Part shown: piece by piece, positions 12,062 through 60,815 of the stretch | Layout: the number at the start of each line of letters is the position of its first letter | Numbering within the stretch: the stretch's first letter is position 1 | NCBI RefSeq assembly: GCF_963675165.1 | Contig: NC_087377.1 | Coordinates: 9,689,122 to 9,753,121, forward strand | DNA: 64,000 nucleotides | DNA from: Halichondria panicea | Taxonomy: Eukaryota > Porifera > Demospongiae > Suberitida > Halichondriidae | Direction: 5' to 3' | Translations under genes and position numbers: made by a program | Notes under the pieces: model-generated | Seen by the model: the letters and a program-made list of their open reading frames with translations, nothing else | Told to the model about the DNA's origin: nothing | Databases searched by the model: none

Positions 12062-12664
12062 TAGCCTCGATTCCAGGCCGCTCTCAGTTGAGAAAGACGG
12101 CCTGGTATACACTGTCTGCGCATGCGTCAGTTGCCCCAAGATTCTTGGGGATCGAGATATCTTAGTAAATTAGTTAGTATATTGTATATTTTACAATGAT
12201 GTCATTGCACAAATCACAGCAGTTTTAATAAAATAACACAGCTACTTACAACATTTACGACCTAGACTAGTGACTAGTTTTGTTGTGATGGCTTCTACTT
12301 CTGTTCTGCTCTTGCTCAAGCTCTCTCCAGTGTTGAAAAGTCAGATTTTGTCTTCTTTTGTACTGTGGTAGAGTGGTAGGCGTTTTTCTGTCAGTACCGA
12401 CCGGCTCTGGCAAATCTACTTGCTTCCAGACACTTGTTTGATGCCATCTCAGTAAGATCAGTGCTCCTCGTATGAGCCTAGAGTTGTGATGGCGATTTCT
12501 CTCTCTTGACACTAAATAGTTTAATCAACCACGTGGGTGACCATAGTACAAAAGGTTAATTGATAAATTACAAAGAGTTTTACTAACAAATTTACTATTG
12601 AATCCACCCACGCGCAAACAGTGGTTACCAGGCCCTCTAGTGAGAGGGGCTGGGATCGAGGCTA
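12062..12664. mobile_element. 603-bp TAGCCTCGA-family element, perfect 9-bp duplication
   Basis: Starts TAGCCTCGATTCCAGGCC and ends GGGATCGAGGCTA. ATAATAACC flanks both sides (12053-12061, 12665-12673). A nearly identical copy sits inverted at 56479-57061, lacking about 20 bp. The minus strand holds an 81-codon open frame (12267-12512) with natural-looking codon order that may be a captured exon; no family recognised. Confidence 0.9.
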
Positions 12665-12709
12665 ATAATAACCCACAATTTAGTGCACACTAAATAAAAT
12701 TGAAAATTG

Positions 12710-14099
12710 TTATATGTGACAGGGCCTAGGAAAACCCCCCTTAACGCGGCACTAATTAAATTAAGCTATAGGTCAATTTAGTAGAAATGAAAAACATGGG
12801 CAAAAAATTTTTTTTTCACAGGTGCTAACTTCAACCCTTCCTCTACCTATCTGTAAAAATTTGGGTCTCTACAAAGCTTTAAACAGGTCTAGCGCGGACT
12901 TTGAAGAAACTCACCGAAAGTTCATTTTTTATAATGAAATTTACTGTCTACGTGAGGGGAAATACCCTGGGAATTTCCCTATTATTGTTAATTATTTTTA
13001 ACAAATAAAAGATGACAACTTGTACAGGACTATTTCATCAGCCCAGTCTTACAATCATCAAGAGGAGCCAGGTATATTATAGCTCCACTTCTTAACAAAC
13101 ATAATTTAGCAACAGAAATAGATTAGAAAGAGCAGCTATCTAGCTAGCTAGCTTGGCGTAGATCCACTCTTGTTTCTTTAGATGTACGTATCCCGTGCCA
13201 CTTGTCCTCATAAACACTCCATAACAACCTACAGATAAGTAGTAAGTTAAGATAGACACAATATCAATGTCACTTACATTCTAGCCAATAGACTAGCGTT
13301 TCTCAGGCCTCTGACACTTACCACCACCTGGGGGAACCATCAATATAAATGTTATACGACAATTCCACGCAGTTTCCTGGGCCCTCCATGATGTGATCAC
13401 CCATCCCATCAGGCCTGTTACTACTAAGCACAATGGCAGTGATACCAGTACTAAATTAAAGGAGGAAAGCTTCTTATAAGGCTACTAATAAGTTGGATCA
13501 AGCCTTAGATCGATACGGACGAATACTAAGTGAAAGACTACCTACAATAGATCACTTAGGCTTCCTTTAAGCTGTATGAAGGACAGAGACACTTTCTGTA
13601 GGCTCCATACAAGTGAGGGATCTTTTATAAGACTGATACATTACACAGATAATAAGTACAAGCTTATAACAAGACATGAGAGCTTACCATTTGAGCGACG
13701 GGAGTCTTTGCCTCTTTAATTCTTCGAAGATCCTTCCTAGGTGCCAAGCAATTCAGCTACATAGCTATACTAGCTAGCTAGAGAGTCCTAGAACGCCTAG
13801 CCTTCATCTAACTAACTTGTCTTCTCCAGAACATCTTTTACGAAGCTTTATGAGTATACGGAAGTGCCCGGAAGGCAATAATTGAACTTCAATTATTCAT
13901 GACGTTTGAGCGTTTTACTCAAGAGGGCGTTGCAATACCTTGGTAGCGTTCCCTCGAACATATCTCCGGATAGAAAATAGCTAGGAGGTCGATCTTGGTA
14001 TCATTTTGAAGCTTAGAGAACGCTTTATCCGATTCAACAATAAAAATAAACTCGGGTACACCCGCGTTAAGGGGTGTTTTCCTAGGCCCTGTCACATAT
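12710..14099. mobile_element. About 1.4-kb TIR element, termini ATATGTGACAGGGCCTAGG
   Basis: Arms of about 37 bp (ATATGTGACAGGGCCTAGG... and its complement ending GGCCCTGTCACATAT), differing by one CCCC/ACACCCC indel. The interior has no transposase frame; only short open frames without motif. Superfamily unknown; no clear target duplication. Confidence 0.75.
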
Positions 14100-14121
14100 T
14101 CTTGAAAGCTATATATCTTAC

Positions 14122-14186
14122 ATTCTTGTGGGTAAGGCTCCAATGAATATACTCTTCTTGCGGGTAAGGCTCCAATGAATATACTC
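14122..14186. repeat. Two tandem 32-bp units
   Basis: TTCTTG(T/C)GGGTAAGGCTCC and the following ATGAATATACTC are duplicated in direct succession. Adjacent sequence at about 14225-14280 resembles 11985-12030 in reverse complement (GAATACCAGCCG.TTCTCATTGTA), a short dispersed repeat. Confidence 0.75.
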
Positions 14187-14556
14187 TACCAACATTCCGT
14201 CCGAGGACAGAAAAGTATGCCCAGAGTAACCAGACGGTTCTCTCCCTCCCACGCTTACAATGAGAACCGGCTGGTATTCAAGACTATGTCTTAGCACACT
14301 GTATAGGTCCCTAGGTTTATGATACCATAATATAGGCATAATATAGGAAGCAGCTATATTTGTACTCTCCTCCTTGTCAAGATCAGTGAATTTGAATATA
14401 TTTGAGTACAAGTTGTGCTTTTTCTTCAAGGAATGCATTATAGTTTAAATACAAGTTGCGATTGAGGTACATACATTCATATGTGGTTCTTTAAATCTAC
14501 AGGCGGGTTTACTATGTATAATTATTTCACAGAAGAGTTACATGGATGTAAAAGTA

Positions 14557-14973
14557 CAGTAGAACCTCGCTAATCCGAATAGAGTGGGACCAGACCCCAT
14601 CCAAATACATGAAATTTCCGGATGAACAGATGTCATTAATATTATTGACTATGAATATCATTAACGAAGACACTTTTGTACGTGTATTATGATATTACTG
14701 TGGCCAGAAGGGAAGCTGCTAGCTAGAATAGTCTTTATCTCAACTTTCTCTCCAATACAGTGAGTCTTGTGAGCTCTCTTTTCGTTTTCTTTGCAGTGGC
14801 CATTGTCTTGAGCAGTTTATCAATAAAATTATTGCTGATTCAGCTAAGCAATTTACATTGCGCATGCGCAGTACTCTATTCTACTGACAGCCCCTCCTCT
14901 TTTTCAGTTTGCCATTTTGTCCGGATTTGCGAGGTTTCGGATTAAAGGGGTCCAGATTAGCGAGGTTCTACTG
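14557..14973. mobile_element. 417-bp pogo/Tigger-type MITE
   Basis: Ends are CAGTAGAACCTCGCTAATCC and GATTAGCGAGGTTCTACTG, flanked by TA on both sides (14555-14556, 14974-14975). A TA duplication and CAGT.GAACCTCG ends are typical of pogo-group Tc1/mariner elements. No transposase frame; it would depend on one in trans. Confidence 0.85.
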
Positions 14974-14989
14974 TATAGCTATCGACAGG

Positions 14990-15394
14990 ATGTAGGCTGT
15001 ACGTGTGGGGCAAGTATCTCCATTTTGTGTTAGCATTTTCAGAATCCATTGACTAGCAGTGGGCTGGATGCCCACCCGGGGTACCAGATCAGATGACCTT
15101 TATCAACTCCTGGAACTGACTACAATCTACAGAAACAAGATCGTACAAGCAGCCATTAGATTATTTGTTGTAGTCACTTGGCTATGGCCATTGTCACAGA
15201 CTAACATAGCTCTTATCTTTATATGTATTATATCACACTAGGCAAAATTATTGTATAAGTTTGGAATTGAGAATAGATAAGTGATGCCCATACTATGGGC
15301 CATAAAAGAGTTTGATGTCCCTGATGAAGCAGCTGCATGATTAGCCACAAAAACCAGGCATCAAAAATTAATATTTCACCTTAGTCAAAGATCA
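14990..15394. other. Non-coding spacer
   Basis: No gene or repeat recognised. Confidence 0.35.
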
Positions 15395-15600
15395 ATAGAG
15401 CGGCGATTGGCACATAGAACATTAGACATTGGCGCTTGCCAAGAGGTCAAAAGTCACAACATTGGCGCTGTATCATTGGCGCAAGACGCGACTTCCAGGG
15501 CCACTCTTCTTTCAAGCTGATTAGTAGCGTTAAATACAGAATGTTATAGCCGAGGTCGAAGTTCGCGAATTGACTCAATTCTCTCATAAATTAGCCGCCC
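15395..15600. repeat. Interspersed repeat with GCGCCAATG motif, copy 2 (inverted)
   Basis: Reverse-complement relative of 11748-11950, sharing GAGGTCAAAAGTCACAA, CATTGGCGC (three times) and GACGCGACTTCC. The half-site pair here is AGGTCAAAAGTCA, an eroded DR1. Confidence 0.65.
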
Positions 15601-16266
15601 TTCTAGGATAGTGCAGTGGTAGCCTCGACAAGGCCGTATTTTAATACCGTAGTGCAGTTGGACTATGGTTGTACGTACATTGATTGTAATGATGAGCCAC
15701 TTAGCCTGAGCTAAAGAAGAAGTTCCTTATTATAATTGTCCCTTCAGGATTCTGCAAATAACTGCTATGCTATGTGTACGTGTATCAGTGCTGAATCATT
15801 TCTTGACGTACAAGTAGCTGCAATAATGTAATGCGGAACACAATACAGAATTGTTCTCATGAAGGCAAATTTGTAACTATAACAGAGATAATTAAAGGTT
15901 ATACATGCAGGGTGTGTGGTGATAGAAACAGTAAACTGTCAGATGAGGGGGTTTAATTAATGTCCGACGGTATCCACTGACTCCACCATTATCATAGAGT
16001 CCCTGCAATAAAGAATTACACCTAACATAATTGTTTTGACTTAACAAAGATGCGCACAAGTTCTACCGCCATATCTCATCGATCATTTAATAACTAAAAC
16101 AAATCAAGAGTGCGTGCGTACTTTAATACGGTAGTACAAAGGTGAATAAGCCCTCACCTCAATAGAGCCAAAGGTATGTGCCTCTCATTTGAAAGAAGAC
16201 AATCTGTCACGTCAACAAAACTGTATTATTGAGTGGATATCTATGTAAGCATGGCTACAATACTCC
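15601..16266. other. Non-coding spacer
   Basis: Contains a TAGCCTCGACAAGGCCGTATTTTAATACCG-like end at about 15620-15648, a likely remnant of the TAGCCTCGA family, and otherwise nothing recognised. Confidence 0.4.
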
Positions 16267-16322
16267 TAGCCTCCTCACAGGCCTTGAGAAAAGTACATGC
16301 AGCCTGCATGGGATCGAGGCTA
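16267..16322. mobile_element. 56-bp miniature TAGCCTC-family element
   Basis: Begins TAGCCTCCTCACAGGCC and ends GGGATCGAGGCTA. Flanks CAATACTCC (16258-16266) and CAATACCTC (16323-16331) differ only in the order of two bases, so a 9-bp duplication is probable. The interior contains a GCATGCAGCCTGCATG-like palindrome. Confidence 0.65.
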
Positions 16323-16331
16323 CAATACCTC

Positions 16332-17222: not shown

Positions 17223-17516
17223 TAGACTCGCAAGCCGTCACTGTTGCAGGCGAACAGTAGACTGGTCAAACTCCGTGTTGAGACTCGTGTTGCACAGTCA
17301 GCATATCAGAAAATATTTTAAGTGGCTGCGGTTTTCGTGACGTCAGTATACTGCATGTGATACGTAGAGTTTTCTAGTGAAACGTTACTATCATTGATCT
17401 TGTGGTAACCGCATGCGGTTAGTTACCACAAATATCGTGGCAAACGTTACACGAGTCTCAACACAGAGTTTGATCAGTCTACTGTTCGCCTGCAACAGTG
17501 ACGGCTTGAGAGTCTA
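17223..17516. mobile_element. 294-bp foldback element, 8-bp duplication
   Basis: Arms of about 68 bp begin TAGACTCGCAAGCCGTCACT and end with the near complement ..GAGAGTCTA. TCTTTGTC is repeated at 17215-17222 and 17517-17524. The second repeat copy at about 47636-47650 (TTTTGTCTGACTG) shows the empty site. Ends read TAG..CTA like the 9-bp family, but the duplication is 8 bp with these borders. Confidence 0.85.
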
Positions 17517-18100: not shown

Positions 18101-18681
18101 ATCCGACTAGAAAAACATTTGCAATGTGAAAAATTGCTAGGATTGGCCAGGGGAACCACCAAAAAGCGTGGAAACAAGAAATCAGACGAGAGCATAACTC
18201 CAATCCGTTACAACGTCATGAACATGTACATTATAGTGTGTTCCAGATCCATCTACCAGCTTCCATCCACCACATCATTCCATGCAGGTCACCAGTACGG
18301 TCCGTGCATGTCCCTATGCATGCATGGATGGACTTAGCCTCGAGACGAGGCCGGATTCGAGGCTAGGATGGACTGTGTATACGTGTACATACCTGTGCTC
18401 AACACTGCATGTATTAGGAACATAAATTCATCACAAATCATCATGATTATATGCCCGCACATTCCAAAATGGATGTATAAATATATAGGGATCGGTCATC
18501 ACCCCACCAGTAAAAATTGCGTGGATTGGCTGGGAAAACATGGAAACTACCAATACATGTGAATGACGTTGTAACGGATTGGAGTTATGCTCTCGTCTGA
18601 TTTCTTGTTTCCACGCTTTTTGGTGGTTCCCCTGGCCAATCCTAGCAATTTTTCACATTGCAAATGTTTTTCTAGTCGGAT
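18101..18681. repeat. Hairpin segment with about 120-bp arms, copy 1
   Basis: Left arm begins ATCCGACTAGAAAAACATTT, right arm is its complement. The arms are almost perfectly paired over 120 bp, yet differ at many positions from the arms of the related segment at 51922-52464. The interior holds the 31-bp insertion at 18335. Confidence 0.85.
18335..18365. mobile_element. 31-bp TAGCCTCGA-family insertion, perfect 9-bp duplication
   Basis: TAGCCTCGAGACGAGGCC is followed by GGATTCGAGGCTA, so the element is only two termini back to back. GGATGGACT flanks it on both sides (18326-18334, 18366-18374). It resembles the 30-bp insertion at 45183. Confidence 0.9.
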
Positions 18682-18760: not shown

Positions 18761-19813
18761 TAGCCTCGATCCCAGGCCGAGTTTTCGCTTTTATAACGGT
18801 TAGGCGAACAACTAGGCCTGGTACTAGTTGTCTGCGCATGCGTCAAATTTTCATTGTATTTGTGGTCGGCAAAAATATTTAATAAATCAATAATCGAAAT
18901 TTGTACACAGAAAATGCAGAGTGAGTACACAAAAGATGCACATAGGGAGCTGCTTCACAAGGGCCTGGGGAGTTGCCAGTTGTGCTGCAGCACGATTGCA
19001 GTGACCCAGGGCAACTTCAAGATGATTGAATGCCTTCAAATTACGTTTCAAAATGATTTAGCAGGCTGCTGGACTTCTCTGATTCTAGGCCCCAACTCGT
19101 AATTCAGTTAAACTTTGCTTGAGAAAACGTAGATTCTCTTGATGCCTCTGAGCTACCCAGCAACGCTCGAACGAGCAGGTCATACTCCAGTCCTGTAAGT
19201 ATAGGACAATATTAAAAGAAACCAAACACGGTTAAACCCTTACCTCAAACTGTCCAGTCTCGACCGTTAGTACAGCCAAGAGGAACAATGTTGGGATAGC
19301 TGGATAGTAGCCATTGCTCCTGTACAGAGAAGTAGACATTCTAAATACGTGTAGATCTAAATTTCTCGTATTAAACAGGTTATAGTGTCGTTGTCGACGA
19401 GCTGATTGATGGCAGCACCAAGTTCTCTAGCTCACACTCTTCACTTGATCCACCATATTAATGATGATACTATAGTCTACCTAGATCTTACCAAACATGA
19501 ACAAGACTTGATAGAATATCTGACCTTAACAAGCTTGACAAAGCTTTATACCTCTTCCCTTGTTGTTCAGTCTTCAGAATAATGTTTTCTAAGCTTGAGA
19601 AGCTTCAGCTAAGAGCCATTCCAATCGATTCCAATAATGATAAAACGGGAACTGACTTCTATAGTACACGAATATAAATGTCACGAAAGTGAACGAGAAT
19701 ATCCATTCGTCAGAATCTGACGAACGACTGACGCATGCGCAGACAACTAGTACCAGGCCTAGTTGTTCGCCTAACCGTTATAAAAGCGAAAACTCGGCCT
19801 GGGATCGAGGCTA
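18761..19813. mobile_element. 1,053-bp TAGCCTCGA-family element, perfect 9-bp duplication
   Basis: Arms of about 90 bp start TAGCCTCGATCCCAGGCC and contain a sub-hairpin ACAACTA..TAGTTGT. GTGTTGTTC flanks both ends (18752-18760, 19814-19822). The interior has an 82-codon open frame (18854-19102) without motif and possible splice-like borders; captured host sequence is possible but not shown. Confidence 0.9.
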
Positions 19814-20600: not shown

Positions 20601-21429
20601 CCGGTTTTAATTTTCGTGTTACTTCTCTGCCCTCGAAAAACGTGACATTTTGCACCTCACGAAAATCTCCCTCTATACGGTATGCACAGACAGAGCATAA
20701 TTATATGCTTGTGGCCCATTAGCTTGGCTAGCCTGTGCAAATTGTTCACCTATTATCAAATTATTTATTCAAACACTTGATCAGTGTATTATTCAACTTC
20801 ATCAGCCTATTATTCAAATTGATTACATCTATTATTCAAAATAATTATTCAACTTACACAGCAGCAAAATAAAATTATTAATTAAGTCATTATTTTAGGT
20901 TTTGTACTATAATTATAGTTATTGCCCAGCACTCAGGCATTATGTTGCTCTAGTGCAATTAGCTTCCTTCAGGAGAAAGAAGGCCTGCTATTCTAATTCA
21001 TGCTACTAAATTCTTGGGTTTTCTTCCCACAACTAGTGGAAAAGGTATATAGTACCCGGGACCAAATGAGTTATTGGGTGGGAGGGTAGGGCATAAATCC
21101 AAAAGCAGATTTCATCCACTGCATTTACACACAGTGCAACATGCCGTACAAATGCATGTATTACATTGCGCTACATTACTAGGCATGCATAATGCAGTGC
21201 AATATATACATAACAATATCGATATAATTATGTATGTAGAATTTTCTGGTGGATATTATTGTTCTGATAACATTCCACATTTTTATAGCCTCGCACTTAT
21301 AATAGGCCACAATAATACTTTCTCACTTACCCCACAGGATGCGGGTGGAACACATGTGCATGCACAAATCTACTTCATAGTTTTTGTGGCCTTATACACG
21401 GCCATCATGTTATACTATGCTACATGTAG
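20601..21429. other. AT-rich spacer upstream of the receptor gene
   Basis: Contains a lone CTATACGGTA terminus (about 20672-20681) of the MITE family at 7827, and TATTCAA repeats at about 20755-20850. The first exon(s) and promoter of the receptor gene, including a signal peptide, should lie here or further upstream but could not be recognised. Confidence 0.4.
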
Positions 21430-24400: not shown

Positions 24401-27400
24401 GTTGATCTATGGTTGAATGTTATTAATTTTAATCTTGAACTGCTGCTCGGTGCACGAACTCAACATCTACAATTAATGCACCTATAGTATAATTATAGAA
24501 ACCACTGGTGATAGTAAATAGTGGTCACAAATAATATTATTCATGGTTGATGACCGCAGTGTGGTTACAATAATTGTGAAAACCACAGTTCTACAAATAA
24601 ATTATGTACATGTAGTCCTGGTGCTTAGTGCTCAAATCTGTATGGATCTACACATGCAAGAAGGAGAGAAGCTATAGCAACGAGTCACTAGAAAGATCCA
24701 GACTGAGCTTAAACCAGGCATGTTATGTTTCAAGGTTCTCAATGGATTCAGTTCTCAGAGCAAAAGATCAAATCAAATCTTATTTGGGGAAAGTGATGAG
24801 GGGTAGCCTCGATCCAATTGAATGCTAGGTCGCCTCCTCGGCCTGGTATTGATTGTATCTGGGCGTGTATCTGGGCATGTGCTGTGGTTGCTGTGGTTGC
24901 TCAGGTATTCGCTCAAAACAAGTGAATAGAAACACTAATAGTGTATGTAAGCATACTTACTCCGTAAAATCAATTAAATCATAGATATAGGCTTAGCTAG
25001 AGTGTGAGGAGCTGTCTTGTGCGAAGGAAGAAGGAGCATCACTCTTGTGAAAGAACAGACCTAGGTTCTCAAGTTTCTGCTATCAGTTGGCTACCTTTGT
25101 CTTTGATTGACTACACAATTTAATACTAGCACTTGATTAGACCATTGATTGCCAGATACACTTGGTAGAGTCTATCCTCAGACTCTGGCCATCGATCTCT
25201 TGTATACTATGCTCAGGGGTGTCCACAAGTGGCTGGGCCTGGGATGTATTGTCAAATCGAGCAGAAACTTGAGAACCTAGGTCTGTTCTAGTTGGGCGGA
25301 GTCCAACCAACGCTGCGCTCTGGGTTGGGTATCAGTACATGTAGCAGTTTTGTTCCACCGGTACTTGAGACAGAGTATGAATATTGTTTAATCTTTAAGT
25401 GGCTGACAACCGCGCGCATGGCTCAGGGGTGCGATATAAAGAAATCAATTAACTATTTGGATGGCTATTCTAGCTGACTGGATCTAGCTATAGTTGTTTT
25501 GGAATTCAAGAAAGACCTCAGACTCTTAGAGAAAGTAGAAGAATACTGTAGCCTGTAATATAAGATTTAGTACAGGCAGAAATAAACTTTTTCATAATAG
25601 TTAGACATCTAGCACAAGGAGAGGTACAGCCAGCTATAAGACTACCCCAAGGCTTCTGAGAAGCTTTTCGAAGACCAAAGAAGGCATACATAACACAGGT
25701 TTTGTCCAAACTAATGATCTAATCTTATTGGTAGCACAACAAAACTTAAAACAAAGACAAGTCCTTTTAATTAATTAATACATACTGTTCAAGCTTCATT
25801 CATAGATGCTAAGATAGACTATGCTTCTTTTCTAGTAGCCTAGATATCCAGCAGGAGCTGTTTCTGCATTCTCCAGAGAAATACAGTGTCCCAGCTCGCC
25901 TTGTCAGCTAAATTGAGCTGTAAGGTTTCCCACTTGAACGCAGCAATCTGATTGGGCTGCAAATTTCTTGCAGTGGGAACAAAACTGCTACATGTACTGA
26001 TACCCAACCATGAGCGAAGCGTTGGTTGGACTCCGCCCAACTAGGTCTGTTCTTTCACAAGAGTGATGCTCTTTCTTTCTTCGCACAAGACAGCTCCTCA
26101 CACTCTAGCTAGCTAATCTATGACAAACTAAACTTGCAAAGAATAGACCTATGACACGGAGTTCTTTGTGATTTAACGGTGATTTTACAGAGTAAGTATG
26201 CTTATACATACACTATTAGTGTTCCTATTCGCTTCACCTTGCTCAGGTATTCGCTCGTTTTGAGCAAATACCTGAGCAGCTACAGCACATGCCCAGATAT
26301 ACAATCAATACCAGGCCGAGGAGGCGACCTAGCGTTCAATTGGAGACGGATCGGCCTGCGATCGAGGCTAGATGAGGGGCTGATGAGAAAGTACTAATCT
26401 ATAGTTTGCCTGTGGAATTATGGCTAGTTTGACCATTGATAGTAGAGGAAGAGGGATTGGAAACGCCTGTGATTACAGTAAACAACTGCATTGCTCTTGC
26501 TCCGTAAATTATCGTATAATACTACACTCACAATAAATAACAAATGGCAGTCAAAGCAGTTAGAGCAGCTATTAGCAGTTATTCTGGAGGACGAGGAATT
26601 CCTATAGTCTTCCTATTGGACACTCCAACGTTTAAAGATTGAAAGAAACTGAGGAGAAGATTAAGAAAACAATATAGATACTATAGTTTAGCTGTTTTTA
26701 TGTGCAATGTTTTTATACTAATCATCTATATTCAGTTCATACTTCACATACATGACATACATGTAAATCAGATGATATGGCCAACAGATATATAAACTGA
26801 AAATAAATCTATCTATAGTGTCTTGGGTGAGATTAAGAAGGGGTTTTCTGTCTTCGTTCTTACTTAATCTTCGAGGTCGAAACTTTGCGGCATCTACACA
26901 TGTGCAAAAAGGAAGTTGAGATGGTGGAAAGTAGTTCAAGCCACAATATAAACCCTAAGTAATGAGTACCACTAACAATTAAATGCACATATTCATCCAA
27001 CACCATGAAATAATTACACAAAATGTGCGCATAATCGTAAAAAAGGATACATTTCTCCATCAATAACCAATAAATTACATTGTTCAAGCCATTCAGATGA
27101 ACGAGTAGGCCTAGAATTAGCTTAACTTGGTCTAAGGAAAGATTCATGAAAGCCTGGAAAATTACACAAAGTAATTTTTTAACGTAGTAAAAAAAATTGT
27201 TTTTATTCCTTACTTTTACTGCATCTTTATCACCAGTAAGTATCACTTAAGCTTCCTACGACTTAGATATGGCTACTGTGTCGACTAAGCAGAGTTTCAC
27301 TAAGAAGTGTACTGTTCACATTTATCAACAACAATTATTGGCAGTAGATCTAGATACACATGGTTCAGCGGAAGTGACGTTTTTACTAGCAACATGTAAG

Positions 27401-29832
27401 CGTTTCCAATCCCTCCTCCTCTACTATCAATGGTTCATGGTTTGACTCACAGTGAAGGCCTCTTCAGAATCTTTCATAACATCCACTAAAGTACTAGCTG
27501 TTTGTTAGCTGTAAGAGCCAGAAAGAGCTGCAAAGCTGTACTGCATGCTATAGCCGTCAACCTATCGTTATTTTAGAGAAATGGGCCTGGGGGAACCCTT
27601 GATCCCACCCCTTTTGTTGACAGGAAATGCAATAATGATCCAGAGGGGAGGCCGGACATCATTTGAACTTTCACTAATTAATGACATTCCAGGCCAAATT
27701 GCTTTTCGTTTTTTGCTGACTCAGCAGTAAAACACGACTGCATGGATCTAGCTAGCCTCGGTCCCAGGCCGATTTTTTTTTAATAGAACGAAGTTGAAAA
27801 ATACTGCCTGGTATTGATTGTATCTGGGCGTGGCAGGAACCGGAAACAAAAGCAGAGATTCTTTACATTTTGTTTCCTGCTTTTTTTCTGTAATACTAAA
27901 GGTGTACGTAGGGCATTTTACTCCCGTAAAAGTTACAGTAATTTAGCTCCGTGTCATGTTCTCAATTTATAGCTAGCTAGCTATGGCATGCAACGCGTTG
28001 TCTTGTTTGAAGCAAGATGGCCTCACTCTCATGGCAGAACAGGCCCAGGCTCTCAAGCTCCTGTTTAAGGGAAGGGACGTGTTTATCTGGTTCCCAACGG
28101 GGTATGGCAAGTCTCTCTGCTATATCAGTTGCTACCCTTTTTAATGGACTACAAGCTAGGTAGGACCAAGGCTCCTCCTGTTGACAAAAGTGTTGTTCTT
28201 GTTAATTGTCTCTTCCCTTGTATCTCTCATCATGAGACTCACGATTGACCAGATCAGGAGTCTGAACAATAGAGGTGTTTCTGCTGCCATCCTCAGTAGC
28301 AATAAAGGAATTGACAAAGATTTGGTTGCTACTGCCAAAGAAGTGTCTTCTGGGAAGTATTTCCTGCTGTATACTGCCCCAGAGGCTGTTGTTGAAGACC
28401 ACTGTTGGAGGATTCATTTTTTGTTGTACCACGAGTCAATGTATTAAAAAACCACGCCCAGATCACGCCCAAATACAATCAATACCAGGCCTAGTAGGCG
28501 ACCTAGCGTTCAATTGGAGACGGATCGGCCTGGGGTCGAGGCTAGGATCTAGCTTGTATGGCTATTATGTGCTGATAGGGTTAGGTCCAGTAACCATCAC
28601 AGACACCAAACACAGATGCAGCGACAGAAACCATGCAGAAACATTGTTAGTTGCCCTCTATAACATGTACTCGTGATTATAGGCCGCCCAACTTTTAGAG
28701 GGCGTCTGAAATATAAGACTAGCAGAAGTACAGTAGACGCTACTGCTGAGTCAGCAAACACGAAAAGCAATTTGGCCTTGAATGTCATAATTAGTGAAAG
28801 TTCAAGTGAAGTCTGACCTCCTCTGTAATGCATCAGTTTTATTATTCTACATCTGATCAGATAGTGTTTTAATAACTGTGTCAACAATAATTGCATAACA
28901 TTATATTACTTCTTCTATATAATATTATACCGAAAGAAAAACATGGCGAGAGCATTAGCACAGTGCAGCTTGTAACACTCGTTATGTCTTGTGTCAATGC
29001 ATGATGGTCAGTTGTGCTGTGTTTTGTCTACATCTTAATGTAACCTTTTTTGGAGAATACATGCACCGTATATCTTCTAATTTATCGGACAGCAAAAAAT
29101 AATTATTTTGGAAATTATCTGGGTATAATTGGAACAGATTTTTATAGAGCATGCAAAGTGTCCGGAATAATTAGAACAAGCAAGCAGCTGCATGCGAGCT
29201 AGCTAAGTTTAATAGAACAAGGTACGACTGAATAGTTGCAATAGCTATCTAAAACTAGCTCTCAAAGCTATCTAACTGCAGCACTCTTAAGTCTTACTTG
29301 CCGTCTATGAATGAAACTCAACTTTTCAAGGGTATTGTCCGGATATTTAGAACAAATGTAATATTAAAGCACTGGATTGTCCGTTGTATTAGAACAACGA
29401 AAATTGCCCAAAAGAGTGTCCGGGGTAATTAGAAGTGTCCGATAAATTAGAAGATATACGGTAATCGGATTTTTTTACGAGAATATACAATTAAAGAATT
29501 TCTTGAAAAAATTATATTTTATCAGGCTAAAAACATCACCGATGCTCATGCTTCATTTTCTACTTTTCGCAGAATTATCGTTTGATGTGAAGTTGATACT
29601 AGCCCTTATCCTAACGTTCCTGGTGACCCTGGTTGTTGGAGTTTCCATTGGTGTCGTCATTGTACTTGCAGTGATCAAATATAGGAGGTCTAAGAAGATA
29701 ACTCCGCAACTGACTGAAACGGAGATGATACCACCACAGCCTGTGATATATGAAGAAATTAAACCAGACCCACACACTTGCAGGAACCTCGCTTATGAGA
29801 CATTTAAACGTCATGTGTCTGCAAATCAGTAA
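21430..29832 (+). CDS. Single-pass receptor-like membrane protein, gene 1 (5' end not found)
   Basis: Exons read in phase: 21430-21795, 21848-22126, 22182-22267, 22331-22526, 22599-23105, 29573-29832; all introns are GT..AG, four short (52-72 bp) and the last 6.5 kb. Together they give 563 residues plus stop. Exon 1 is Ig-like (ITCSHN, then RWRITG). Exons 2-4 look like beta-sandwich (fibronectin-III-like) modules with several N-glycosylation sites. Exon 5 has paired cysteines and a sushi-like end (C..LCRDGVWEINGNISC). The last exon supplies a hydrophobic helix of about 23 residues, a KYRRSKK stop-transfer and a 45-residue tail with YEEI and YETF. It is a paralogue of the minus-strand gene at 62448, with identical exon phases. 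The protein probably sits in the plasma membrane; ligand and function are unknown. The joining of exon 5 to the distant last exon rests on phase and on the paralogue's order. Confidence 0.75.
24029..24786. mobile_element. 758-bp TIR element in the receptor intron
   Basis: Arms of about 36 bp (AAATAAGATTTGATTTGATC... and complement) with TTGCTCTGAGAACT. The interior at about 24060-24490 is homologous, in reverse orientation, to 30640-30915. No transposase. Confidence 0.75.
25010..25105 (+). pseudogene. RecQ-like helicase remnant, internally deleted
   Basis: The nucleotides align with the RecQ-like stretch at 28008-28155 in the sister element (GAACAG.CC.AGG.TCTCAAG, then TCTGCTAT..CAGTTG.CTACC and GA.TGACTAC), with the Walker A part missing. 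Too short to function. Confidence 0.6.
25289..26043. mobile_element. 755-bp nested TAGTTGGG..CCCAACTA element, perfect 9-bp duplication
   Basis: Arms of about 70 bp begin TAGTTGGGCGGAGTCCAACC. GGTCTGTTC is repeated at 25280-25288 and 26044-26052, and those 9 bp lie inside an arm of the host element, so this insertion is younger. GCAATCTGATTGG plus a CTGCAA/TTGCAG hairpin lies at 25944-25973, 70 bp from the right end. No transposase frame. Confidence 0.9.
26434..27433. mobile_element. About 1.0-kb element with GATTGGAAACG subterminal motif
   Basis: Arms CATTGATAGTAGAGGAAGAG.. and complement, containing GGGATTGGAAACG. Inserted in a copy of family A: AGTTTGAC precedes it and GGTTTGACTCACAGTGAAGGC follows, the exact continuation seen at 46372. 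Related to the element at 47809; solo ends occur at about 9066 and 11577. The 128-codon minus frame inside (26860-27246) has no motif. Confidence 0.75.
27434..27560. repeat. Family A fragment, copy 3 (right part)
   Basis: Continues the family A sequence interrupted by the preceding element (CTCTTCAGAATCTTTCATA, TTTGTTAGCTGTAAGAG, CAGAAAGAGCTG). Its left part is about 26415-26433. Confidence 0.65.
27753..28544. mobile_element. 792-bp TAGCCTCG-family element carrying a RecQ-like fragment, perfect 9-bp duplication
   Basis: GGATCTAGC flanks both ends (27744-27752, 28545-28553). Left end TAGCCTCGGTCCCAGGCC and right end GGGGTCGAGGCTA. Most of the interior is a RecQ-like helicase fragment. Its two ends, fused, make up the 81-bp element at 60735. 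Confidence 0.9.
27984..28437 (+). pseudogene. RecQ-like DNA helicase fragment inside a transposable element
   Basis: From an ATG at 27984 the frame gives an N-terminal helix, a Q-motif-like EQAQALKLLFKGRDV, and an intact-looking Walker A (FPTGYGKSLCY). One missing T in the run at about 28137-28142 ends it with TAA. After the lesion, in other frames, follow motif Ia-like SLVSLI..DQIRSLNNRG, SAAILSSNKG, and FLLYTAPEAVV (motif near Ic). These are RecQ-family superfamily-2 features; motifs II (DEAH) to VI are absent. At most about 150 residues of a normal 500-600-residue core are present, so it cannot be a working helicase. Whether it was captured from a host gene or descends from an autonomous element's own gene is open; the sister remnant at 25010 shows it predates the split of the two elements. 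Confidence 0.75.
29064..29463. mobile_element. 400-bp MITE, TIR ACCGTATATCTTCTAATTTA
   Basis: Left ACCGTATATCTTCTAATTTA and right TAAATTAGAAGATATACGGT. Subterminal GTGTCCGG.ATAATTAGAA motifs are repeated several times inside. Lies in the last intron of receptor gene 1, about 110 bp upstream of its final exon. Partial relatives at 11140 and about 46945. Confidence 0.85.
29573..29832 (+). CDS. Terminal exon of receptor gene 1: TM helix and tyrosine tail
   Basis: Preceded by a pyrimidine-rich TTTTCGCAG acceptor in the phase required by the donor at 23106. Encodes a short ectodomain link, a strongly hydrophobic helix (ILALILTFLVTLVVGVSIGV onward), basic residues, then the tail. PVIYEEI matches the optimal Src-family SH2 ligand pYEEI, and NLAYETF follows after 11 residues, an arrangement close to an ITAM (YxxI/L x6-12 YxxI/L) but with F at the last position. 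Stop TAA at 29830-29832. Confidence 0.75.
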
Positions 29833-33824: not shown

Positions 33825-34735
33825 TGTATTAGTTAATGTACAGTGTAGAGGGGTTTATGACAGGGGAGGTGTGGTTTATATTCATACGCCCTCCTTCCAC
33901 TTACTGTGCAGCAACCAGCCAGAAGAAACAACACAGCTAGCTCTAGACGGTGTCTAGACCAGCTCTCTTCAGCTATGCCAGGCTAGTAGGCAAGCAAAGG
34001 TAAGCTTAAATAGCCACTCCTTTATTATTATTAAACTGGCTTTTTTTTTCATTGAATACAGAAGCTGAACAGGCCTAGTGCAGTGCGTGCAGTACTAGTG
34101 CTAGTGAGCAAGTCTGCCTGAGCCACCTAGTCTCCCGGATTGTCTCTAAAGCAACTCCTTCTGCAAGCACACAGCAGAATTTTTGATAAACTAGTCTTAC
34201 AGACTACACCCGACTCTATGTGTTTCATTTATGACATTTTGTTTCTCTTGCAAGACATTTCATTCATCTTCATTCATCGAAAACACCATTATTTTAATTT
34301 TAGTTGCATATGCTTGAGGTGCCAATTTATGAGCCATATTTTCCCTTGTAGCCCTGAGGTGCCAATTTATGACAGTTAAACCCCACTAGACTACATGGCA
34401 AAAGTGTAGTAGGTGGGAAATATGTATTAGTTAATGTATTAGTGTCATAAACCCCGAGGCACTGTGCATTAATTGATATATGTCCCATCTGATTGGCTGA
34501 CTGGTTGCTATGCATCAAGCTGCATGACTACCACATAGCAACACTATTCAAACAAGAAGACAACTATAGGAAAAGATAGCTCGTTCACACCAGGGCTGCT
34601 GTCCACACTCAAATCCTTGCGCAGCCTGGACAGAATATGAGCAGCCAGCCCCTCCCTCAAAGCGAACGGTACAGAGCCACTCCCCCTCTCTGTTCAATTA
34701 GTCAGCCCCTCCCTCCACTTACCATAAGTGTGCAG
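33825..34735. repeat. Interspersed repeat family E, copy 1
   Basis: Aligns with 40017-40371 plus 44964-45545 and with 45690-46145. Starts with a half hairpin GTATTAGTTAATGTACAGTG, later inverted as CACTGTGCATTAATTGATA. Contains a conserved intron-like segment (AAAG|GTAAGCTTAAA...AATACAG|AAGCTGAACAG, about 34000-34062). Ends near CCCCTCCCTCCACTTACC. No protein seen. Confidence 0.75.
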
Positions 34736-36306: not shown

Positions 36307-36771
36307 TAGTCTCATGAATCAGCCGCCGTTCTTTTGGAACCGTCTGAGCACTCTTGTCATAAAGTCATTTCAAAATGGAATGTTGATTGCTCACAAAACC
36401 AATGGAATGTAATTAAATCGTGATCTTACGCCCACACATATTTCCTAATTGTTATACAAATCGCCAAGCGAAGGCATCTCTCTCCACTTGTGTTTTGCTG
36501 TGGTGCTAATCTGTGCCCAAGGACCCCTGCTTGCCTTGCTTATGCTTCGTAGCAGCTTCTATGTATGAAGTATTTACCATGCGTAATGCATGCGTAATGA
36601 TTATCCAAATGCGTTGAGCAAAGTGCAGTTCTTTGCTGCCTCCAAGTTCATCACCTGACTGGACTTCTGCAATTTGATTGGTCAAGACGGAATTCCGTCT
36701 TGGCACATAAAACGATGACAAGAGTGCTCAGACGGTGGTTCCAAAAGAACGGCGGCTGATTCATGAGACTA
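36307..36771. mobile_element. 465-bp TAGTCTCATG..CATGAGACTA element, perfect 9-bp duplication
   Basis: Arms of about 55 bp. GATCTAGCT is repeated at 36298-36306 and 36772-36780. GCAATTTGATTGG followed by a perfect 20-bp palindrome (36683-36702, centre GGAATTCC) lies 69 bp from the right end. No coding capacity. Confidence 0.9.
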
Positions 36772-44963: not shown

Positions 44964-45545
44964 TACAGAGCCACTCCCCCTCTCTGTGCAATTAGTCAGC
45001 CCCTCCCTCCACCGTACTGAACCAGCCAGAAAAAAACAACACAGCTAGCTCTCTTTGGCTATGCCAGGCTAGTAAGCAAGCAAAGGTAAGCTTAAAATAG
45101 CCACTCCTATATTATTATTAAACTGGCTTTTTTTTCTTTGAATACAGAAGCTGAACAGAACCTAGTGCAGTGTGTGCAGTACTAGCCTCGATTCGGCCTG
45201 GAATCGAGGCTAGTGCAGTACTAGTACTAGTGCTAGTGAGCAAGTCTGCCTGAGCCAGCTAGTCTCCCAGAGTGTCTCTATAAAGCAGCTCCTTCTGCAA
45301 GCACACAGCAGAATTTTTGATGAACTAGTCTTACAGACTACACCCGACTCTATGTGTTTCATTTATGACATTTTGTTTCTCTTGCAAGACATTTCATTCA
45401 TCTTCATTCATCGAAAACACCATTATTTTAATTTTAGTTGCATATGCTTGAGGTGCCAATTTATGAGCCATATTTTCCCTTGTAGCCCTGAGGTGCCAAT
45501 TTATGACAGTTAAACCCCACTAGACTACATGGCAAAAGTGTAGTA
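44964..45545. repeat. Interspersed repeat family E, copy 2 (right part)
   Basis: Resumes with TACAGAGCCACTCCCCCTCT exactly where copy 1 continues at 34667. Carries the same intron-like GTAAGCTTAAAA..TACAG segment and the 30-bp insertion at 45183. Confidence 0.8.
45183..45212. mobile_element. 30-bp TAGCCTCGA-family insertion, perfect 9-bp duplication
   Basis: TAGCCTCGATTCGGCC is followed by TGGAATCGAGGCTA, nothing more. GTGCAGTAC is repeated on both sides (45174-45182, 45213-45221); copies of the host repeat at 34100 and 45900 show the site with a single GTGCAGTAC and no insert. Confidence 0.92.
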
Positions 45546-53379: not shown

Positions 53380-54778
53380 TAGCCTCCTTCACAGCCTCTC
53401 CTTTTTCTGTTCTTTGTCACACGGTCAATAAGATAAAATACGGTAAGAATTGGAGGAACAAAGAAAGAAAGAACGAACCGTCTAAGAAAAAGGAGAGCCT
53501 GTCTCGCTAAGTCGCGTGACGGTGGCACAGTGGTGGCACAGTGAAAATGAGCGTGGGCTTTCAGTAGATGGGCGGAGCCTGACAGGCAACAAAGCCACAG
53601 GATGCCTACGCATTGTAGACTTACTTCATATGCAAGTCTGGAGATAATTATTATCATAGACGATGGCTTTAATACCTAGCATAGTGAAGTCTGAAGACTA
53701 AAGGTCTATCTTTGAGCCTATCCTCAAGCCTCAAATTGAGGCTTGAGTTATTATTGAGCAGTCTAGTCTAGAAACAGTGTAAAATGACATGACAATGTTG
53801 CAAGGTTGTGATCTCATGAGTACTGACAGAGTGACTAAACTATACTAATTTGTGTGCATGAGACAGTTTTCACAGGGGCACGAGCACCAATGTCGAATTT
53901 TCCCTTAGTTTAATACATGTAATAGATTGAAGATCGATAGGGTCCTGTTAATTCCATAGTCGTGTAATCCTATTGTAGTAGTATTAGAGGTTCTGCTCCT
54001 TTTGGAAACTTTCTGGCAGTAGAACCAGCTCTATAGTGGATACGGAAATAATACCTGCAGATAAGCACTCAGGTCTACATTGTCTGCTGTAATTTGAAAC
54101 ACTCGACTGGGTCGAACGTGAGGTCTTGAGAGTGGGAGCACATTGAGTTTGATAAGGCGAGTCTTGTAGTCTGTAGTTCTGCTGTAGTTCTACTGTAATT
54201 ATCCGAGGATAAAATTGGTTGCCCTTGCCCTTCTAGTTTGGATAGTGTGATTGTTCCAGGGCAATCTTCTTCTTCTTATTATTATGACTTGGACTAAAAC
54301 ATTCCTTCTGATGACATGAAGGGATCTGTCAATTTTGGCATGTCAGAAGTATTGCTGTGAGTTGTCCAGGATCTGGGATAGGTTCCTTCTTTGCCCAGGT
54401 CCTTTTGACAAGTGCTATTATCAGATACAGTAGTACTCTAGCCTTTCATGCTTCATCTTGTAGAGCTAACTTCTACATACTGTGTTCTGTAGCTTCACAC
54501 ACTCTTTGCCTCTAGTTCCTGGTAAATACGCTTAAGTACTGTGTCACAGTGTGTGGGAGGACAGATATTGCGGTTTACTCTTGCCCACGCTCAATTAAAT
54601 TTGGCTACGTCAGTAGCAGATCACAAGACTTAGCGGGGCAGGCCTTCCTTTTTCTTAGTGGCTTCCTTTTTTCTTTCTTTGCTCCCTCCAATTATTCCCG
54701 TACGGTGTTAATAAATTATTGTGACAAACAACAGAAACAAAATTATAACTGAAAAAGGAAGGCCTGCGAAGGAGGCTA
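53380..54778. mobile_element. 1.4-kb TAGCCTCCTT element, perfect 9-bp duplication
   Basis: Ends TAGCCTCCTTCACAGCCTCT and AGGCCTGCGAAGGAGGCTA; CAATTCTGC on both sides (53371-53379, 54779-54787). Inner arms (AAGAAAGAACGAACCG..., CTAAGTCGCGTGA..., against TTCTTTGCTCCC.., CACAAGACTTAG) extend about 130 bp. The middle shows no coding motif. Confidence 0.88.
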
Positions 54779-54787
54779 CAATTCTGC

Positions 54788-56100: not shown

Positions 56101-56104
56101 TATA

Positions 56105-57107
56105 CAGTAGACTCTCGCTATTCCGGCTCCCTGAAGTACGGCCACCTCGATATACCGGCCATTTGGCTTGGCACGGAATGCTAGCTATATGTTTACTGCA
56201 CAAAACTCACCCTGAAGTACGGCCACTCGCTATTCCGGTTACCGGCCAGTGCTGGCTGTCCCAAACAGGGTTTTCAATGTAATTTGATACGTGTATTACG
56301 GCCGGATATGACGTTTTGGGTGTGGTTTAGCAAATAAAATTGAATTACACTTAAATAGAGAACAAAATGATTCATTATCCTCGAGACAAGAACCGCAAAA
56401 GTAGTCATTAGATTCGAGGTAAGGTCGTTTTTAAGCCGCGGCTATTTCCTGAGCTGCAGCCACCTCGCTATTCCGGCCTAGCCTCGATCCCAGCCCCTCT
56501 CACTAGAGGGCCTGGTAACCACTGTTTGCGCGTGGGTGGATTCAATAGTAAATTTGTTAGTAAAACTCTTTTTAATTTATCAATTAACCTTTTGTACTAT
56601 GGTCACCCACGTGGTTGATGAGAGAGAAATCGCCATCACAACTCTAGGCTCATACGAGGAGCACTGATCTTACTGAGATGGCATCAAACAAGTGTCTGGA
56701 AGCAAGTAGATTTGCCAGAGTCGATCGGTACTGACAGAAAAACGCCTACCACTCTACCACAGTACAAAAGAAGACAAAATCTGACTTTTCAACACTGGAG
56801 AGCTTGAGCAAGAGCAGAACAGAAGTAGAAGCCATCACAACAAAACTAGTCACTAGTCTAGGTCGTAAATGTTGTAAGTAGCTGTGTTATTTTATTAAAA
56901 CTGCTGTGATTTGTGCAATGACATCATTGTAAAATATACAATATACTAACTAATTTACTAAGATATCTCGATCCCCAAGAATCTTGGGGCAACTGACGCA
57001 TGCGCAGACAGTGTATACCAGGCCGTCTTTCTCAACTGAGAGCGGCCTGGAATCGAGGCTAATTCCGGCCAAGCTGCATGGTCCCAAGGGTGACCGAGAG
57101 TCTACTG
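56105..57107. mobile_element. Complete pogo-like element (about 420 bp) carrying a nested insertion
   Basis: Ends CAGTAGACTCTCGCTATTCC and CCGAGAGTCTACTG, with TA on both sides (56103-56104, 57108-57109). The body contains four variants of CCACCTCG(A/C)TAT(A/T)CCGGC on alternating strands. Without the insertion at 56479-57061 it is about 420 bp and non-coding. Confidence 0.88.
56479..57061. mobile_element. 583-bp TAGCCTCGA-family element, nested, perfect 9-bp duplication
   Basis: Inverted, nearly identical copy of 12062-12664. ATTCCGGCC is duplicated (56470-56478, 57062-57070); removing element and one repeat restores the CTATTCCGGCCAAGCTG sequence seen in other copies of the host family. 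About 20 bp near the CACGTGG site are missing relative to the first copy. Confidence 0.92.
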
Positions 57108-57108
57108 T

Positions 57109-57167
57109 AGTTATAACACGGGCACGAGGGATATATGCCATGCAGCCCGAGTGCACGTGTTATAACT
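57109..57167. repeat. Palindrome AGTTATAACACG..CGTGTTATAACT
   Basis: 12-bp perfect arms around a 35-bp spacer with CACGAGGGATATA and CCCGAG phrases, directly after the pogo-like element. Confidence 0.75.
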
Positions 57168-57274
57168 AGTTTATATCCCGAGGGCATAGCAACATAACAC
57201 TGTCATAACACAATATAAACAGCACAAAAAAAAAGACAGAGACAACTCACAGCTCTATCTCTTCTCTCTTCTAG

Positions 57275-57445
57275 ACGCCAGTATCTGCAGCATATAAGAT
57301 TGGCATGACCGACGAATGGCTTGACACAAAATTGTTGGAGTTCCAACTGAAATCTGTAAAACAGCCCCACCCCACTTCTGGTGCTGCAAAACAGCCCCGT
57401 CCACTTACTGCTGCAAAGAAACAGCCCCACCCCACTACTCAGTGA
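57275..57445 (+). CDS. Possible terminal exon, basic low-complexity protein
   Basis: A TCTTCTCTCTTCTAG acceptor-like tract is followed by 56 open codons and a TGA. The peptide has TDEWLDTKLLEFQL, then a repeated (A)AKKQPHP/AAKQPRP pattern. After the stop, another frame (about 57482-57580) gives a further AAKQLMPPAKRA stretch ending in TGA, so the gene may be frameshifted. No family recognised, no upstream exon found. Confidence 0.25.
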   Translation, partial: TPVSAAYKIGMTDEWLDTKLLEFQLKSVKQPHPTSGAAKQPRPLTAAKKQPHPTTQ

Positions 57446-57599
57446 ATACGTGTATTAGCTGCTGGTCTACGCTCGGCCTCATAACCAAGCCAAGAAAGCT
57501 CGCTTCTACACTGCTGCAAAACAGCTCATGCCCCCAGCAAAAAGAGCCACTCCTAGTGCTACGGTGAAGCAGAATTGACATGCATCACAAGGTCGAGGA

Positions 57600-59237
57600 C
57601 TAGGTCAATCTAGGAACACAGAATCTTCCACAAAATGAATCTTGGACAATTTTAAAACCTGCATGGTTGCAAAAAGAAACTCCAGCAGTGCTGAACATTC
57701 ATTCCTACATGGCTGGACATACTTTGATACTTGTTATTTCTCATGCGTATTAATTTAATTTTAATTTAATTGTCTGTCTAATTGCCAGAGGGGCGTTTTG
57801 TGGTTAGTGCATTATGACTTTGCGGTCAGTGCATTATGACTTTCAGCAGTGCATTATGCTGCATATTGCACTTGGCAACAACGTAGCAACGGGATATAAT
57901 AGATTTTATAGACCAGATCTTTATGCTTTTGTTGTTGTAGTTTTTTACGCTATTTGGTTAATTTTAGCTTACGTCAGCTCACGTGAAGTTTTAGCAATAG
58001 TATATTATTACACTTAAGGTAAGCGTATAACAGTTTACAGCTAAATCACAACTTGGCCTATCTCTATCTGTAGGTACAAAGTTCAAATTTTAAAGCCCCA
58101 ATTCAGTCCATTCATGCTGTCTCGATCATACGGAGTATAGCTTTAATGTAGATTCTGTAGTAATTACCCCAGTGAGCTTCTTTCTGATTTCACTGAGGTG
58201 CAAGCATGGACTAGTATAGATATTCGTCATGTTTGTGGAACGTATGGGCTCTAGGGGTAGCTTGATTACGACATACACTGCCTGGTCGTTTAAAACGATA
58301 TAATTATATAAAATTGTTGACCGAGAAACAGCCTAATGCTGAACCAGTCTCCAACTCTCTGCCACATAATACGCCACTTAACTCCTCTTGATAAGGAGTA
58401 GTTTTTACCAGCCATGCACCCTTTCTACCACCCCCATAAACTCGGAACCCATATATATCACTTATCACTTTGAATGACAGATGACGTACCAAGGTCAGAG
58501 AATATGTGGAGTAACTGCTCAGACACAACAGCTATATCTTTAGAATACAGCGAGCAAAACTACATTCAAGTACAAGTAACGTGAGCATACATCGATACAT
58601 GTATAAGAGATAGCATCCACTAGTGGTACTTCTTGCCATCAACAGGATCGGTGCATCTATCACGCTCATCAAATTGATCTGGAGTTTCTCCTAAGATGTA
58701 ACGTGTTTGAGAGGAGCTTTGTAATCAAAATTGGCTTTGGTGGCCTATATAGCTGATACTTAAACAATATTGTTTTTATGTCTCTTTCTGCATGCATGAG
58801 CTTTCATGTGCCATCTCCTTTTGAGCGATCGAAAAAGCAACTTCTCTTTATTCATTAGTACAAGTGTTAATTGGCAATAAAAATTATCCTCTTTTCGGAG
58901 ACAGATGTGAGAGGGAGGATTCTCTACTTTGGTACAGTAAGATTTGTTTGGTGTGTGTACAGGTATATAAGTACATTGATATGTTCAATCAAAGACATCA
59001 AAGCCTTATAAGCATTTTTCGGGAAGGGAAGATATATACAGTCAAGTCTCTTCTTTTCAAACGTTGTTTCCTATAATTAATTTTTACAGCCTGTAATTGT
59101 ATCTGAATGTCTTGACATGCATGCGTGTATAATTATTATGTTATGGGCACTGTTATAGTTGCATATAATGATGCGCGCCTGTGTATAATCTAGTATTCTC
59201 CAGTTAATTGTTGATATTGGTACATTTTGCTGTGGGC
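57600..59237. other. Non-coding region
   Basis: GTGCATTATGACTTT is repeated three times (about 57808-57855). Otherwise no gene or repeat recognised. Confidence 0.35.
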
Positions 59238-59246
59238 CAGCTTCAG

Positions 59247-59483
59247 TATAGCCTCAAGACCATGCCGTTCGTTATTTGAAAGAACGGGCCTATAGTCAAG
59301 TTCCAATGTAGCATGCACTCGTTTTAGTGGTCCAGGAATTTCTTGGACCGATAATTGCCCGCACAAGGTGTATTACCCATAAATATCATTATGATGCTGT
59401 AAAACGCTGACTCAGCTAGACAAGTTGCACATTGGAACTTGACCAGGTGTTCTTTCAGATACAAACGGCTGGTCTCGAGGCTA
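59247..59483. mobile_element. 237-bp TAGCCTC-family element, 9-bp duplication
   Basis: CAGCTTCAG flanks both ends (59238-59246, 59484-59492). Left end reads TATAGCCTCAAGACC, right end GGTCTCGAGGCTA, so two extra bases lie at the left. An inner inverted pair CAAGTTCCAATGT / ACATTGGAACTTG is present. Confidence 0.8.
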
Positions 59484-59492
59484 CAGCTTCAG

Positions 59493-60010
59493 ATTCAGAA
59501 AATCCGGTAATAAAATTATAATGACTCATGCATCTCTGCAGATCTACAGCTGCAAGGTTGTGAAGAGTGCTGCTAAAGTATAAATCAATGTGCATGGACT
59601 TACATGGGCCTCCTCTTCAGCCAGCATTGACAGCAGGCTGAAATGGATTATGCAGCTCCATTGGCCGATAATGAAAAACCAGGCTGACAGCTCATCAACT
59701 ATATACTCAGTGGTAGATCTAGGTTGGGGCAGCATATACAAGAACAGGAAATGACTAAGTAAATAACTAGCTAGCAAAGTCATTACAATATTCTTGGATT
59801 CAGTATACACACAACCATTGTTTCCAATGAAAAACTTAATTCAATGAAAGCACCGCGGGTGCTGATGCCTCGGTGGAGATGCCAAAGCTATACATAACAT
59901 AATATTTATATAAAGCTACTATTAAATAGCTTTTATACACAGTCATGCATTGCTACGTGCAAACTCGAAGAGTGGGTAACGATTGATGCCAAAAGTTCAA
60001 GTCTAAAATT
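59493..60010. other. Non-coding spacer
   Basis: No gene or repeat recognised. Confidence 0.35.
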
Positions 60011-60014
60011 ATTG

Positions 60015-60585
60015 AGTGGCATTTGTGTCAAAAATAAAAATTGATCTGCTTGGTAAAATCGATTGGAAAATGCATAGTCAGCTGAATTGATCTGCAAAAT
60101 GCAAATCAAAACTGCTGTGTCAGCAAATCGATCTGCAAAAATGCAAGCAGCGTGCAATAACGCAAATTAAAATTAAAGAAGTGTTAAGACACACCCCTAT
60201 ACTTCAAAGCTTTCTTTGGTGTAACATATAGCTTTGAGGTTTGTTAACACTGTATTTAGTGACCTCTTGCGACCCTACAAAAAAGCAAATCTGATTGTTG
60301 TGTTGAGAATGCACTGAGTGCAGATCGATTTGTTTTGCGTGCAGATCAATTTGCTGACTCTGCAGTTTTGATTTGCATTTTTTGCAGATCGATTCAACTG
60401 ACCATGCAATTTTTGATCTGCATTTTACAGATCGATTTGTTGACTCTGCAGTTTTGCAGATCAATTCAGCTGACTATGCAATTTTTGATCTGCATTTTGC
60501 AGATCCATTCAGCTGACTATGCGTTTTTCCAATTGATTTTGCCAAGCAGATCGATTTTTATTTTTGACACAAATGCCGCTCCATA
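60015..60585. mobile_element. Foldback element built of GATCTGCATTTTGCAGATC units
   Basis: Arms begin TGGCATTTGTGTCAAAAATA and end with the near complement. The right half contains four to five tandem copies of a module (GCAGATCGATTCAGCTGACTATGCAATTTT) each with its own small palindrome. TAAAATTAT(T)G and TAAAATTAATG flank it, a probable 9-bp duplication with one change. Confidence 0.75.
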
Positions 60586-60734
60586 TAAAATTAATGGCTG
60601 CCATCAGCAGGGCCTTGCAGCCCTCTTATCACTCTTGCAGCTACCAATAGCTAGGGTTCTAGTGCAGAGCTAACTACTAAGTAGAGTAGCAACACTCTGT
60701 AAACAAGTTTGGCTACAATGCTCCTCTGAAAAGG

Positions 60735-60815
60735 TAGCCTCGGTCCCAGGCCGATTTTTTTTTAATAGGCGACCTAGCGTTCAATTGGAGACGGATCGGC
60801 CGGGGGTCGAGGCTA
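60735..60815. mobile_element. 81-bp TAGCCTCG-family deletion derivative, perfect 9-bp duplication
   Basis: The first about 33 bp equal the left end of the RecQ-bearing element at 27753 (TAGCCTCGGTCCCAGGCC plus the T run), and the last about 49 bp equal its right end (GGCGACCTAGCGTTCAATTG ... GTCGAGGCTA). CTGAAAAGG is repeated on both sides (60726-60734, 60816-60824). Confidence 0.92.

Follow-up and report, generated by a model that had tools for sequence, protein, structure and literature searches.

TAG-ended elements in the window

The 64,000-bp stretch of Halichondria panicea DNA analysed here (64 kb of contig NC_087377.1, positions 9,689,122–9,753,121; hereafter the window) contains a family of segments that begin with TAG, end with CTA and are flanked by 9-bp direct repeats. 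These TAG elements are very probably non-autonomous, internally deleted members of a cut-and-paste DNA transposon family, for which AcademH, a lineage of the Academ superfamily, is the best placement. Non-autonomous copies were found at 6542–7260 (719 bp, exact repeat CATGCAGCA), 12062–12664 (603 bp, ATAATAACC), 18761–19813 (1053 bp, GTGTTGTTC, both ends sharing an identical first 75 bp), 27753–28544 (792 bp, GGATCTAGC) and 56479–57061 (583 bp, ATTCCGGCC). The copies at 12062 and 56479 are 96% identical in inverted orientation and contain helicase remnants (tblastn E 3e-5 and 4e-5, respectively), and a RecQ-like helicase remnant spans 27995–28411 inside the 27753 copy (tblastn E 2e-35). The 1567-bp element at 24804–26370 (GATGAGGGG) holds a nested element of 755 bp at 25289–26043 with variant ends TAGTTGGGCGGAGTCC and the repeat GGTCTGTTC. 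Variant ends also bound a 465-bp element at 36307–36771 (ends TAGTCTCATGAATCAGCC, repeat GATCTAGCT) and a 1399-bp element at 53380–54778 (ends TAGCCTCCTTC, repeat CAATTCTGC), and an 81-bp element lies at 60735–60815 (CTGAAAAGG). Two elements of the window are shorter than 56 bp, namely the ultra-short copies of 31 bp at 18335–18365 (GGATGGACT) and 30 bp at 45183–45212 (GTGCAGTAC). With the copies at 16267, 17223 and 59249 included, the elements cover 7908 of the 64,000 bases.

The common ends read TAGCCTCGATCC-CAGGCC...GGCCTGG, and many ends contain, directly inside their outermost 11 bp, a small inverted repeat whose spacer varies. The length of the duplication is unchanged with the variant ends TAGTCTCATGAATC, TAGTTGGGCGGAG and TAGCCTCCTTC; it is 8 bp (TCTTTGTC) in the 294-bp element at 17223–17516, which has TAGACTC ends. 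The duplicated 9 bp favour G/C at positions 1 and 9 and A/T at positions 3, 4, 6 and 7 (shared insertions counted repeatedly), a symmetric target preference that would be expected of a dimeric transposase.

The 9-bp repeat is specific to properly oriented ends

The association of ends and repeats was measured in pairs spanning less than 10 kb, an end being strictly defined as TAG with at most two mismatches to TAGCCTCGA. The window contains 46 left and 47 right ends of this kind, which form 336 pairs in proper orientation, and an exact 9-bp repeat flanks 10 of them. Repeats of 5–8 bp and 10–14 bp were found in none of the 336 pairs, repeats of 3 and 4 bp in eight and two pairs, respectively, and 9-bp repeats in none of the 327 pairs in the wrong orientation. 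When any TAG-anchored pair with ends agreeing at 7 or more of 12 positions was accepted, 13 pairs were obtained at 9 bp, 32 at 5, 14 at 6, 6 at 7, one each at 8, 10 and 11, and none at 12 bp. The counts at 5–8 bp under this loose definition are such as chance would give for short repeats, and the strict definition alone is free of them. The widest listing, with end similarity down to 3/12, returned 16 exact 9-bp pairs; those at 21303, 29682, 33955 and 34096 have unrelated ends and were dropped. The 12 kept pairs are 6542, 12062, 18335, 18761, 24804, 25289, 27753, 36307, 45183, 53380, 56479 and 60735, all of which except 6542 had been reported as perfect in the first-pass annotation of this DNA, where 6542 was missing.

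The TAG...CTA family with 9-bp direct repeats described in that annotation was thus confirmed by 12 pairs from the scan and one by eye, the latter being the supposedly perfect copy at 59247–59483, whose repeat (CAGCTTCAG) is complete only when TATAGCC is taken as the left end, which makes this end 2 bp longer than those of the other copies. The 8-bp repeat given for 17223 was borne out, the "near-perfect" 56-bp element at 16267–16322 has flanks agreeing at 7 of 9 positions, and for 8616, also called near-perfect, no exact pair was found in the scan down to 3/12 end similarity.

Across the genome (131 Mb in 39 contigs), the proposed search with the 18-bp end TAGCCTCGATCCCAGGCC gave 1122 + 1130 exact occurrences, 2,252 in all, and none of the reversed pattern. 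Among the first 100 of these places, element sizes near 100 bp and 1.08 kb stood out by eye. With up to 3 mismatches, the same 18-mer matched 18 times in the window against 0.01 in shuffles. All the DNA examined together contained 147 end pairs (repeated loci kept) with 29 distinct 9-bp cases, one 10-bp case and five 5-bp cases, and none of 97 wrong-orientation pairs matched; these loci came mostly from searches and therefore form a non-random sample.

The TAG...CTA segments are insertions

The segments are insertions because insert-free copies of their targets exist. The flanks of each element were joined with one repeat copy dropped and compared with the fetched DNA and the window. Across the empty junction, the flanks of the 1093-bp insert in locus L040 match L041 at 160 of 160 bases, and those of the window element at 36307–36771 match L061 at 155 of 155. 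The joined flanks of 60735–60815 are 95.5% and 91.1% identical to L050 and L049, respectively, and those of the 30-bp copy at 45183–45212 align with gaps to window paralogues at 34016 (88.8%) and 45826 (86.1%). A 36-bp insert is common to the Mutator-like element (MULE)-type copies L009, L011 and L014, and its empty counterpart, with one mismatch, was found at C6:572346, adjoining copy L013, whereas the reversed control gave none. Altogether, a junction-spanning match was obtained for 14 of 31 insertions tested and none for 17; the 14 include weak, short or self-similar matches that were not counted as evidence, those of 25289 and L064 lying in their own neighbourhood. The opposite outcome, empty alleles that hold the supposed insert, had been proposed as the refutation of the family. 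The Merlin element L042 carries a 52-bp TAG insert that is missing from L039, and the joined flanks of L042 match L039 without interruption at 99.4% identity.

Some copies occur in compound arrangements. At L014:231–332, L070:669–3047 and L062:87–2650, two TAG elements directly adjoin each other with one copy of the target repeat in common (GCAACTTCC, CTAGCTAGC and CTAGCTAAG-like, respectively), as if the second had used the duplicated target of the first for its own insertion. At L049:6299–7149, a foldback element with TACGGTGGCC ends and an apparent 6-bp repeat ATCCCA lies within a TAG element and itself holds a 103-bp TAG element, giving three levels of nesting.

A full-length element encodes a DUF6589 protein and a RecQ-type helicase

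The inner sequences of TAG elements resembled RecQ Walker-A regions, and the helicase fragment of a 2455-bp element (L062) used as a query gave 152 matches in the genome. Twelve helicase loci were fetched, of which eight have TAG ends on both sides and one more does so in the longer L062. In L071 and L072, a match without stops was accompanied by a single TAG end, and their extension gave L075 and L076. L075 is a 5643-bp element outside the window, flanked by a perfect 9-bp duplication and bounded by ends of the TAG type. This long form of the family is the likely transposase-encoding member that the first-pass annotation had suggested looking for. L076 is a second copy, 97–99% identical to L075 over the main pieces; it contains a nested insert and is flanked by a duplication of its own. 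In both copies, exons for zf-AD and DUF6589 lie on one strand and run convergently with a RecQ-type helicase gene on the opposite strand, with approximate exon borders. Among ten shorter relatives, all found through the helicase, zf-AD is kept in nine and the DDE-bearing part in none. Helicase remnants link the window elements at 27753, 12062 and 56479 to the full-length element, and for the other window elements the ends and duplications are the only link. A 4123-bp TAGTCTC-ended element in L061 was set aside as an autonomous candidate, as its open reading frames (ORFs) are short and the single one scanned gave a weak match below the cut-off.

A DUF6589 homologue has a predicted fold like that of DDE transposases, with a presumed catalytic triad, D47, D192 and E443, conserved among homologues. 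The nearest solved folds are those of hAT (Hermes) and P element, which likewise have an RNase-H core with an all-helical insertion (7–9% identity in the alignments); a sequence search of PDB with the transposase profile gave no match. The hAT and P elements are not known to encode a helicase, make 8-bp duplications and have ends different from those of the TAG family. The C/DxxH motif of the hAT, P, MuDR, Kolobok and Dada group is expected between the second D and the last E, where the DUF6589 homologues have EDWH, i.e. D-x-H.

Probable placement in AcademH and alternative readings

The combination of a DDE transposase, a helicase and a 9-bp duplication fits the published AcademH, and on this ground the TAG family was placed there. 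AcademH elements are described as encoding a DDD/E transposase and a helicase with target duplications of 9 or 10 bp, and AcademX elements as having a nuclease in place of the helicase and duplications of 3 or 4 bp (PMC10045372, citing Kojima 2020, Mob DNA 11:15); AcademH is recorded from animals and fungi (title of Kojima 2020, via PMC10045372). In L075 and L076, the helicase lies between the TAG ends as part of the element, and the duplication of 9 bp falls within the AcademH range. The predicted DDE fold and conserved triad are likened to AcademH by description and not by sequence, and the zf-AD N-terminus, the convergent helicase gene and the TAGCCTCG ends with their hairpins could be either common to both or peculiar to the TAG family. 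TAG elements are unlike AcademX in their 9-bp duplications, and no nuclease was matched in the six L075 ORFs scanned. Thus, the ends that had been said to match no nameable family now have a likely home, and the TAG family most probably represents a new branch within the previously described AcademH elements, its membership resting on features and not on a named Academ sequence.

Against the association of ends with 9-bp repeats stands the imperfection of some copies. The first eight genome places (L001–L008) represent six distinct copies: the 9-bp repeat is exact in one, deviates by one base or one position in two and is missing from two, and the sixth shows just one of its ends within the 3 kb viewed. 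Such copies without a clean duplication are expected among old insertions. A helicase match was found near only 8 or 9 of 61 DUF6589 loci when 50 of the 152 helicase matches were used and divergent helicases were missed; the remaining loci may be nuclease-type, decayed or partnerless.

It is unlikely that the family represents a DDE superfamily distinct from Academ, which would have combined DUF6589, a RecQ helicase and 9-bp duplications independently. Such an origin would agree with the lack of a direct sequence link to any named Academ element and with the zf-AD N-terminus, which has no counterpart in the available portions of the Academ descriptions; the term "DUF6589" was also not found in the open-licence literature searched, where absence carries little weight. 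On the other side, the Academ split into helicase with 9–10 bp and nuclease with 3–4 bp, as given in PMC10045372, is echoed by the helicase- and nuclease-linked DUF6589 genes in this genome, an echo that concerns partners, as no target duplication was observed for the nuclease type. A Kolobok transposase with a RecQ helicase, as in KolobokH, is far less probable. PMC9587614 describes KolobokH with a RecQ helicase downstream of the transposase, on the complementary strand in a red-algal Kolobok, which resembles the gene pair of the TAG family, but the TTAA duplications and 5'-RR ends given there are contradicted by a variable 9-bp duplication and TAG ends, and the homologues have D-x-H instead of C/DxxH.

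The least probable source is the Mutator-like (MULE/Phantom) or Merlin transposase proposed in the first-pass annotation. Duplications of 9 bp are typical of MULEs, and the genome has 31 MULE, 26 Mutator (PF20700) and 24 Merlin matches. However, a TAG pair flanked by a 9-bp repeat encloses the match in none of the 30 MULE loci fetched at 3 kb (of the 31 matches) and in none of four of them extended to 9–10 kb, no such pair occurs in 9 kb at L050–L052, and one MULE family with different ends of its own is a host of TAG inserts. Five of 10 fetched Merlin loci (of the 24 matches) show other ends and 8-bp repeats, and eight fetched Mutator (PF20700) loci, viewed with about 1.5 kb of flank, contain no TAG-ended pair. 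The six L075 ORFs scanned gave no match to MULE (PF10551) or Merlin (DDE_Tnp_IS1595). The three groups were set aside; the earlier interpretation, correct as to one transposon-like family with TAG...CTA ends and 9-bp target duplications, was partly supported overall. Among these loci, L039, L042 and L048 are Merlin elements of about 1.4–1.5 kb with 8-bp duplications, and the MULE genes of L051 and L052, whose C-termini are PHD-like by eye, adjoin tandem short repeats and resemble Rehavkus-type elements.

Possible mechanism and significance

In the AcademH placement, the DUF6589 protein with its predicted DDE fold would bind the TAG ends, excise the element and join it to a target with a 9-bp stagger, while the RecQ-type helicase may open the ends or hairpins in them; short copies would move by borrowing both proteins. 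It is conceivable, although rather improbable, that DUF6589 transposases constitute a separate group whose stagger is determined by the helicase or nuclease partner, and that helicase action on end hairpins allows copies as small as 30–36 bp to be mobilised. These copies are little more than two 12-bp ends and, if this were true, would rank among the smallest eukaryotic cut-and-paste substrates. The many copies in the genome offer material for testing whether, as proposed, the 9-bp stagger is linked to the helicase partner. Pfam DUF6589, a domain "of unknown function", is likely to be a DDE transposase that occurs with two different partner enzymes, and the family accounts for the 2,252 exact 18-bp ends repeated across the sponge genome, where they give rise to indels and to errors in gene models.

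Other features of the window

The first-pass annotation had stated that no transposase is present in the window, which does not hold, as a DUF6589 gene that is not a TAG element lies at 1138–6218 on the plus strand. This AcademX-like gene joins the transposase domain of the TAG family to a nuclease, as in the nuclease-bearing sister lineage AcademX, and consists of a cysteine-rich N-terminus, DUF6589, a FEN1/XPG-fold nuclease region recognised from the model of homologue P0129, and a CXC cysteine cluster. An inverted-repeat scan of 1–6541 gave no convincing pair of terminal repeats for it, and its family is widespread in animals (homologues P0094–P0176). Scans of the window with Rfam (gathering threshold) and for tRNA gave no matches. 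A separate 123-bp element at 9477–9599 is flanked by exact copies of the 9-bp repeat ATAGTCAAT and has the inverted ends CAGAGGAGG, which are not TAG ends.

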